Below the pieces are notes generated by a model. The model had not been told where the DNA came from, searched no databases, and saw only the letters and a list, made by a program, of their open reading frames with translations. Shown here one piece after another: positions 62,378 through 63,797 of a stretch of DNA of 64,000 bases. Each line of letters begins with the position of its first letter. The first letter of the stretch is position 1. The position numbers and the translations under genes were made by a program. Origin of the DNA: a methane-oxidizing endosymbiont of Gigantopelta aegis (GTDB taxonomy: Bacteria > Pseudomonadota > Gammaproteobacteria > Methylococcales > Methylomonadaceae); NCBI RefSeq assembly GCF_016097405.1, contig NZ_JAEHGD010000001.1, positions 1,313,831 through 1,377,830 on the forward strand. Reading direction: 5' to 3'.

Positions 62378-63421
62378 TTATTGATTATTGGCCAATTGAC
62401 CTTCGGTTTTGGATAAGATGCTGGGAACGAGTTTTTCAGAAAAACCAGCGATAAAGCTCCAGATTATCAAGGTAAAGTAACTTTTAGAATTGAGGTCAAT
62501 TTCTTCAGGTTTAGTGAAGTCAGGGAAAACGCTGCCGGTTATGACGCGGGCGCGGAAAAAATAATAACAAATCAAGGCGGCACCGACTCCGGTAATAATT
62601 CGAGTTACAATAAAATGTAATTTATGCAGGTTTTCCAGTTCTTTAAGTGTGATGGTTTCGATTCTGCTTTTTAAAGAAATCAGCATGCTGAAGCATGCTC
62701 CCATATAGCCGGTCATCAGAGCGGTAATCGCAAAATGGAGTTGGATTTTGGCAGATTTGGTTTCGGCAAGATCTGGCGTATCGGCGGTAATGGAGTTTAA
62801 CCAAGTAAATTCGGGGCAATAATTTGTGCAATATTGATAAATACCATCGGGATGTAAAATGCCAATGGCGAGTAAAAATACACTGAGGATGATCGATAAG
62901 CCAAATAGTAAGCCGATTTTAAAGCGTGCTTTATTAGCAAAAATACTGCGCAGTTGTCGGTCTTCGTAAAACTTCTGCAAACTAATTAATAATTTTGTCA
63001 ATAAGGCTTGTTTGTGGCTTAAAGCATCTGATTCTGTATCGACTGAATTTTGTGATGATTCTAAAGGTTGAGCGTGACGCTCAAATTGGTTTTTAAAAAA
63101 GCTATATTCATATTCAGGCAAGTAAAGTTCGGCATAATGGAGTCGGTATTGTAATTCCAGATTCAAATCGTCTGGGTCGAGTAAAGGCACTATGAGTAAC
63201 TCGATGGCCTTAACCTTATCCCAGTCACCCGTATGGTTTAGTTCGTCCAGCTGTTTTTGAATGCAGGGAATCAGTGGATGGTCTTTATGTTTAAATTTTA
63301 CGCGTTCAAAGTAGGCCGATAAGCGAGTGGCATTTTGGCGTGTAATTTGGTCAAAAAATGAACGCCCAAACCATTGATTAACCCATTTTTTGGCACACAG
63401 TAGCCAATCTTCAAAGCGCAT
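62378..63421 (-). CDS. Unrecognised membrane protein, 347 residues
   Basis: The N-terminal 165 residues are soluble, with helical, charged stretches (PLIPCIQKQLDELNHTGDW, LQYRLHYAELYLPEYEYSFF). Then come about four hydrophobic segments: GLLFGLSIILSVFLLAIGIL, FAITALMTGYMGACFSMLIS, IITGVGAALICYYFF and FTLIIWSFIAGFSEKLVP. I do not recognise the family. It converges on batD with 2 bp between stops, so there is no room for a separate terminator. Confidence 0.8.
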   Translation of the reverse strand: MRFEDWLLCAKKWVNQWFGRSFFDQITRQNATRLSAYFERVKFKHKDHPLIPCIQKQLDELNHTGDWDKVKAIELLIVPLLDPDDLNLELQYRLHYAELYLPEYEYSFFKNQFERHAQPLESSQNSVDTESDALSHKQALLTKLLISLQKFYEDRQLRSIFANKARFKIGLLFGLSIILSVFLLAIGILHPDGIYQYCTNYCPEFTWLNSITADTPDLAETKSAKIQLHFAITALMTGYMGACFSMLISLKSRIETITLKELENLHKLHFIVTRIITGVGAALICYYFFRARVITGSVFPDFTKPEEIDLNSKSYFTLIIWSFIAGFSEKLVPSILSKTEGQLANNQ

Positions 63422-63472
63422 TAGTTTTACCTTTTTCTAGTGGGCAAGATGATTCTCTTGTGATTAAAGGAA

Positions 63473-63531
63473 GGAGCTTTTTCCAGTTGTCTTAATTTAC
63501 TATGCCCGTTAAGACAATTGGAAAAGGCTCC
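63473..63531. other. 23-bp hairpin overlapping the end of the small basic ORF
   Basis: 63473-63495 and 63509-63531 are complementary over 23 positions, with G-U pairs at two positions in the plus-strand RNA and A/C mismatches at the same positions in the minus-strand RNA. The loop is 13 bases. It spans codon 47 to the stop of the minus-strand ORF. No strong U-run follows on either strand. Confidence 0.75.
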
Positions 63532-63671
63532 TGGCCTTTATGTTTGTTGTGGCGTTGATAGCGCGTTTTGTCTTTAAAAATATGCGCTTTGTTAAATTTT
63601 CGGGCGTATTTTGCCACCGGGTTCTGTTGGCCGAAGCTCGGCAACGGATTCGATTTGTTTCGTTTTTTCAT
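63492..63671 (-). CDS. Small basic protein with a hairpin in its 3' coding end (ArfA-like architecture; possibly DUF7230-type)
   Basis: This 59-residue protein starts at ATG 63671 after GAGG. It is strongly basic: MKKRNKSNP, NPVAKYARKFNKAHIFKDK and RYQRHNKHKGQEPF. Codon 47 onward lies in a long hairpin, so the RNA would fold over the stop codon. In arfA, the alternative ribosome-rescue gene, a hairpin at this place causes truncation of the message and limits protein made when tmRNA works. The basic K/R-rich tail before the hairpin is similar in character, but I cannot prove ArfA homology from sequence alone. Confidence 0.6.
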   Translation of the reverse strand: MKKRNKSNPLPSFGQQNPVAKYARKFNKAHIFKDKTRYQRHNKHKGQEPFPIVLTGIVN

Positions 63672-63797
63672 GATTTTTTCCTCATAAACCATTAAGATAT
63701 ACAGTTCTCTGACTGTGAAACCGGGCAGATAATTCCTTATATGAGTTGCTTTTCCTTGAGATAAAGTATCTTATTCCCATTTGAAGTGTATTGACCA

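Follow-up and report, generated by a model that had tools for sequence, protein, structure and literature searches.

A small DUF7230 gene at one end of the window (the whole 64-kb stretch of DNA analysed here) probably encodes an ArfA-like backup ribosome-rescue factor that is controlled by tmRNA. The gene very likely has the architecture for tmRNA-dependent control through nonstop mRNA, for which the support is about as good as sequence can provide. Such control would be explained most economically if the product were a rescue factor, and from this, together with missing ArfA and ArfB proteins and a KH-type basic tail, we infer the rescue function. Bacteria devoid of ArfA and ArfB have been predicted to possess undiscovered rescue factors, which are difficult to recognize from sequence (PMC8012679, PMC6881298). 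In the present case the lead to a candidate for a whole methanotroph group comes from an RNA signature and not from the protein, and a function for a DUF family becomes testable.

The gene lies on the minus strand (63492–63671) and comprises 59 codons and a TAA stop (MKKRNKSNPLPSFGQQNPVAKYARKFNKAHIFKDKTRYQRHNKHKGQEPFPIVLTGIVN). It encodes the 59-residue Lys/Arg-rich protein of the preliminary description. This start is preferred over one that would give 66 residues because a Shine–Dalgarno-like GAGGAA, read from the sequence, is present upstream of the ATG at 63671 (63678–63683, minus strand). By profile comparison the protein is a clear member of DUF7230 (Pfam PF23876; E 3.6e-19; 69 bits against a curated cut-off of 27), a family that has no assigned function in Pfam. 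The match covers a core at residues 15–53 (NPVAKYARKFNKAHIFKDKTRYQRHNKHKGQE..., 63513–63629, minus strand). Among 43 homologues compared, N17, A20, A23, D34, Y38 and R40 are invariant and K43-H44 nearly so, and the core NPVAK...FNKA is without a counterpart of known function. The protein matched no NCBIfam family and no PDB sequence. Its AlphaFold model (mean pLDDT 64) predicts only a weak helix at residues 18–29, and Foldseek searches with this model gave no PDB relative by fold. In the literature found, which comes largely from outside subscription journals, DUF7230 is not mentioned and its control by a hairpin is undescribed; titles and abstracts likewise yielded no such rescue factor from Methylococcales or from a phage. 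The next gene on the same strand begins 70 nt downstream (62378–63421, minus strand) and encodes a 347-residue protein with likely membrane segments, which scored above no family cut-off and weakly matched ECF_trnsprt.

Folding and an inverted-repeat search reveal a long hairpin that overlaps the last codons of the gene and extends past its stop. Its 5′ arm spans codons 44–55 (63509–63541, minus strand) and is separated by a 13-nt loop (63496–63508, minus strand) from a 3′ arm (63463–63495, minus strand) that includes the stop codon (63492–63494). The arms are 33 nt long and 82% complementary. The repeat had been described as running from codon 47 through the stop, and codon 47 is indeed where its inner part begins; the TAA, however, occupies only positions 2–4 of the 3′ arm, which continues for about 29 nt beyond it. 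The predicted folding energy is −33.3 kcal/mol compared with a mean of −13.9 for shuffled sequences (z −6.8), and none of 200 shuffles equalled it. No other inverted repeat of this kind in the window is as strong, and its stem score of 18 exceeds those of all 1607 background windows from related loci. Searches of Rfam gave only sub-threshold matches, mostly to miRNA-like hairpins.

The hairpin is conserved at the same site throughout the family. We compared 105 distinct homologous genes, nearly all from Methylococcales, drawn from a sample of relatives (61 genomes), a class-wide sample (369 genomes) and named genomes. A stem scoring at least 12 starts 5–22 nt past the invariant Y-x-R in 103 of the 105 genes (median score 20, length 18–36 positions); the two genes without one (L044 and L045) are distant members. 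Five further loci that were missed by the search pattern (L131, L137, L149, L156 and L157) also have a stem. The 1607 background windows from the same loci have a median score of 7.5 and a maximum of 16. Synonymous recodings of the same peptides likewise have a median of 7.5, and in only 4 of 86 genes did any of 50 recodings reach the score of the real stem. In one genome with two DUF7230 copies (L016 and L035 in G022), both copies carry the hairpin, and their sequences agree up to it and diverge after it.

Base pairing in the stem has been maintained by compensatory change. When 42 genes are aligned without gaps, 25 of the 26 pairs have changed on both sides, giving 235 double-change cells as against 72 in shuffles (0 of 500 shuffles reached the observed number), and this signal collapses when the pairing partner is slid by one column. 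Double changes occur at codon positions 1, 2 and 3, which argues that the RNA structure is kept and not the peptide. G-U pairs outnumber A-C pairs by 248 to 56, even though the stem finder treats both alike, and are in excess in 77 stems, with the reverse in 10 (p 6e-14), indicating that the hairpin is under selection in the sense RNA. These observations bear on whether the inverted repeat might be a REP- or MITE-like mobile palindrome, a DNA-binding site or a product of chance. In the window copy the antisense strand does pair slightly better than the sense strand, as such an origin would allow, but the family-wide G-U bias, the fixed position within one gene family, the compensatory changes and the strong excess over background make this explanation extremely improbable. 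Chance and a mobile palindrome are rejected on the covariation and the background scans.

The position of the hairpin relative to the stop codon and to the conserved part of the protein suggests that the hairpin marks the end of the normal product. In hairpin-bearing genes the 5′ arm is part of the coding sequence. The stop lies past the entire hairpin in 86 of the 105 genes (2 to 93 nt downstream); 13 genes have it within the 3′ arm and 5 in the loop. Between N17 and E48 the amino-acid sequence is strongly conserved, conservation drops where the hairpin starts, and the protein tails beyond it share no common length, as expected if translation normally yields a product that stops there. The pattern that would speak against this reading, a protein C terminus conserved past the hairpin in homologues that lack the hairpin itself, is not what we find.

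We also considered that the hairpin might be an RNase III processing site, an element governing mRNA stability or a terminator that shields the following gene, overlapping the coding end by chance and having no part in tmRNA control. A T-rich stretch (six or more T in eight) follows the stem in 41 of the 105 genes, compared with 5.9% of the background, so that some of the hairpins may be terminators, and the proximity of the downstream gene fits with insulation. An ordinary terminator would, however, be expected after the stop rather than in front of it with its 5′ arm in coding sequence, the conservation of the DUF7230 protein ceases exactly at the hairpin, and the window copy has no T-run. 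We therefore regard an element of this type as unlikely. Under the preferred reading of control through nonstop mRNA, the enrichment of T-rich ends suggests that relatives may use both cutting and termination. In the window copy a transcript terminated at the hairpin's end would still contain the stop, which makes cutting of the stem the more probable route.

The arrangement resembles that of arfA in E. coli and relatives, in which nonstop mRNA arises from RNase III cleavage or from termination (PMC8012679). ArfA and DUF7230 share a small basic protein, a hairpin across the coding 3′ end, a non-conserved tail after the hairpin and an expected truncated product. Scanning 30 ArfA (PF03889) genes with the script used for DUF7230 gave stems scoring 11–24.5 (12 or more in 26 of the 30) that start mostly 10–39 nt past KGKGSYxR. 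The arfA-like layout that had been proposed for the window gene is thus strongly supported: the hairpin is conserved, covaries and is placed as in arfA relative to a similar basic motif. That motif, KTRYQRHNKH (residues 35–44; 63540–63569, minus strand), aligns over 14 columns with KGSYQRKxKH, the segment of ArfA that binds the mRNA channel (hhalign E 3e-4).

At the level of the protein the likeness to ArfA is confined to this stretch. A profile search had been suggested as a check, and it recovers DUF7230 and not ArfA: the PF03889 model found nothing at E values up to 10 in the window protein or in 42 homologues. Comparison of the two family profiles gives a single local match of 14 columns (DKTRYQRHNKHKGQ on GKGSYQRKDKHAGR, E 3e-4), which none of 300 and none of 200 column shuffles reached. 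The match strengthens to E 4e-5 with 103 sequences and fades when phage members join. It is restricted to hairpin-bearing copies and comprises the YxRxxKH part of the ArfA sequence KGKGSYxRKxKH, with KGKG missing. DUF7230 also differs from ArfA in its N-terminal core NPVAK...FNKA, and falls below detection by the ArfA model. A KH motif that touches the mRNA entry channel is common to ArfA and BrfA, two factors regarded as independent in origin (PMC8012679), so convergence would explain the 14-column match as well as homology would, and its origin may be convergent. Searching by HMM for direct ArfA homology gave no match in the window protein, its homologues or the host genome; membership of DUF7230 in ArfA is not established on these comparisons, and we do not file the protein there.

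ArfA recruits RF2 through its N-terminal part, including F25. Three short DUF7230-like proteins (L050, L052 and L168) contain RTPRFRxRVV, a sequence similar to that around F25 in some ArfA proteins (RTPRFKMQQQ in L054), and two of the genomes that encode such proteins (G321 and G415) possess ArfB. These proteins are a possible bridge between DUF7230 and ArfA by sequence. For L050 and L052, Pfam gives DUF7230 only, just below its cut-off, and we do not take them as an established link.

The rescue genes of the host are in keeping with a need for a backup factor. Named relatives of the gene come almost entirely from Methylococcales, which marks the host as a methanotroph. The near-complete 2.93-Mb genome encodes a tmRNA (221 bits, tag ANDENYSVALAA) and RNase III, which together with the hairpin provide the tmRNA and the potential route to nonstop mRNA that characterize the ArfA/BrfA class. 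The ArfA model found no match in this genome, and the ArfB model (NF006718) matched only RF1/RF2-type proteins. ArfB (YaeJ) is an alternative rescue factor for the same niche, a catalytic GGQ protein of about 140 residues; the 59-residue window protein has no GGQ.

A similar picture holds among related genomes. In the sample of relatives, DUF7230 homologues occur in 39 of 61 genomes (counting the host itself), ArfA in none and ArfB, over its cut-off, in 15. ArfB is present in 5 of the 39 genomes with DUF7230 compared with 10 of the 22 without (Fisher p 0.011), so that the two tend towards mutual exclusion, a trend confounded by phylogeny; 34 of the 39 DUF7230-bearing genomes have neither ArfA nor ArfB. 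ArfB and DUF7230 occur together in four genomes of the window's own family. ArfA and ArfB are absent from two more families with hairpin-bearing DUF7230 genes (G171/G287 and G172/G288). Across the class-wide sample of 369 genomes DUF7230 was found in 13 and ArfA in 6, with no co-occurrence, numbers small enough to make this weak evidence. In five genomes of one genus of the same order (G041, G047, G052, G055 and G058), ArfA, ArfB and DUF7230 were all undetected; these bacteria either cannot do without tmRNA or have a further rescue factor that has gone unrecognized.

We propose that most transcripts lose their stop codon on account of the long hairpin at the end of the coding region. In the window copy, with the stop in the 3′ arm, the only obvious route would be cutting of the stem by RNase III, and in some relatives the stop could also be lost by termination at the hairpin. 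On such nonstop mRNA ribosomes would come to a halt some 45–55 codons into the gene, which corresponds to the end of the conserved protein. With tmRNA–SmpB working, the DUF7230 peptide would be tagged and degraded, and the backup factor, with its presumed release-factor recruitment and rescue activity, would be produced only when the main rescue system fails.

Two further rescue systems offer parallels. In Bacillus subtilis, a hairpin inside the brfA reading frame leads to nonstop mRNA, brfA is repressed by tmRNA, and BrfA has a KH motif in its basic tail (PMC6881298, PMC8012679). DUF7230 shares both the hairpin within the coding region and the KH in a basic tail, although BrfA comes from a different phylum and the likeness is one of gene layout and of the KH motif. 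ArfT of Francisella is a 40-residue protein with a KKGGSTNKK motif, no hairpin in its reading frame and no nonstop control (PMC6299226). Like DUF7230, it is a very small basic protein from a gammaproteobacterium that lacks ArfA and ArfB; its gene is hairpin-free like the DUF7230 genes of phages, and unlike those of Methylococcales.

A BrfA-like scheme is found in a separate bacterial family, in which the coding regions of two DUF7230 genes (L047, 1452–1662; L048, 1476–1662) contain perfect stems of 13 and 15 bp with T-rich sequence behind them, more than 30 nt ahead of the stop. A terminator scan called the L048 hairpin and not that of L047; the arrangement in both genes is intrinsic-terminator-like. 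Some bacterial members have no hairpin, and this is also the case for most of the viral DUF7230 genes, which we found on 68 IMG/VR contigs (L178–L245), some longer than 100 kb. The viral proteins mostly end shortly past the basic stretch, and phage genes (L178–L245 and H1–H32) mostly encode 35–60 residues. An in-gene hairpin followed by T-rich sequence in three viral copies (L193, L194 and L203) is suggestive only, since the scan did not call those of L193 and L194.

The phage copies also bear on whether the gene might be under genuine nonstop control by tmRNA and yet encode something other than a rescue factor, such as a hibernation or translation shut-off factor or another small RNA- or ribosome-binding protein that is wanted when trans-translation is saturated. 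The DUF7230 core is common to many phage proteins of unknown function that have no hairpin, and the ArfA likeness, limited to a short basic stretch, is absent from the phage members. Against this, the published cases of nonstop control driven by a hairpin or terminator that we considered, ArfA and BrfA, are rescue factors (PMC8012679, PMC6881298), and most of the hairpin-bearing genomes lack both ArfA and ArfB. We consider such an alternative role rather unlikely, and favour a rescue factor.

More tentatively, DUF7230 could be a separate and widespread rescue-factor family, in which hairpins (long stems in Methylococcales and an intrinsic terminator in the other lineage) place the chromosomal copies under repression by tmRNA and the copy found in many large phages has no hairpin and is unregulated. 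The phage copy might keep translation going when mRNAs are broken during infection, raising the possibility that phages bring rescue factors of their own. The family also suggests a rule for future searches, namely to look in small basic genes for a covarying hairpin that lies within the 3′ end of the coding sequence.

Phage neighbourhoods of DUF7230 genes consist of early or hypothetical genes and gave no functional hint. The phage proteins fall into five families, all of unknown function (phrog_6310, phrog_1359, phrog_4586, phrog_2701 and phrog_5724), of which phrog_6310 and phrog_1359 are the same protein family as DUF7230 (PF23876). A phage member matches 35 named phage records, mostly phages of Aeromonas, Citrobacter, Cronobacter and Erwinia, some of them jumbo phages.
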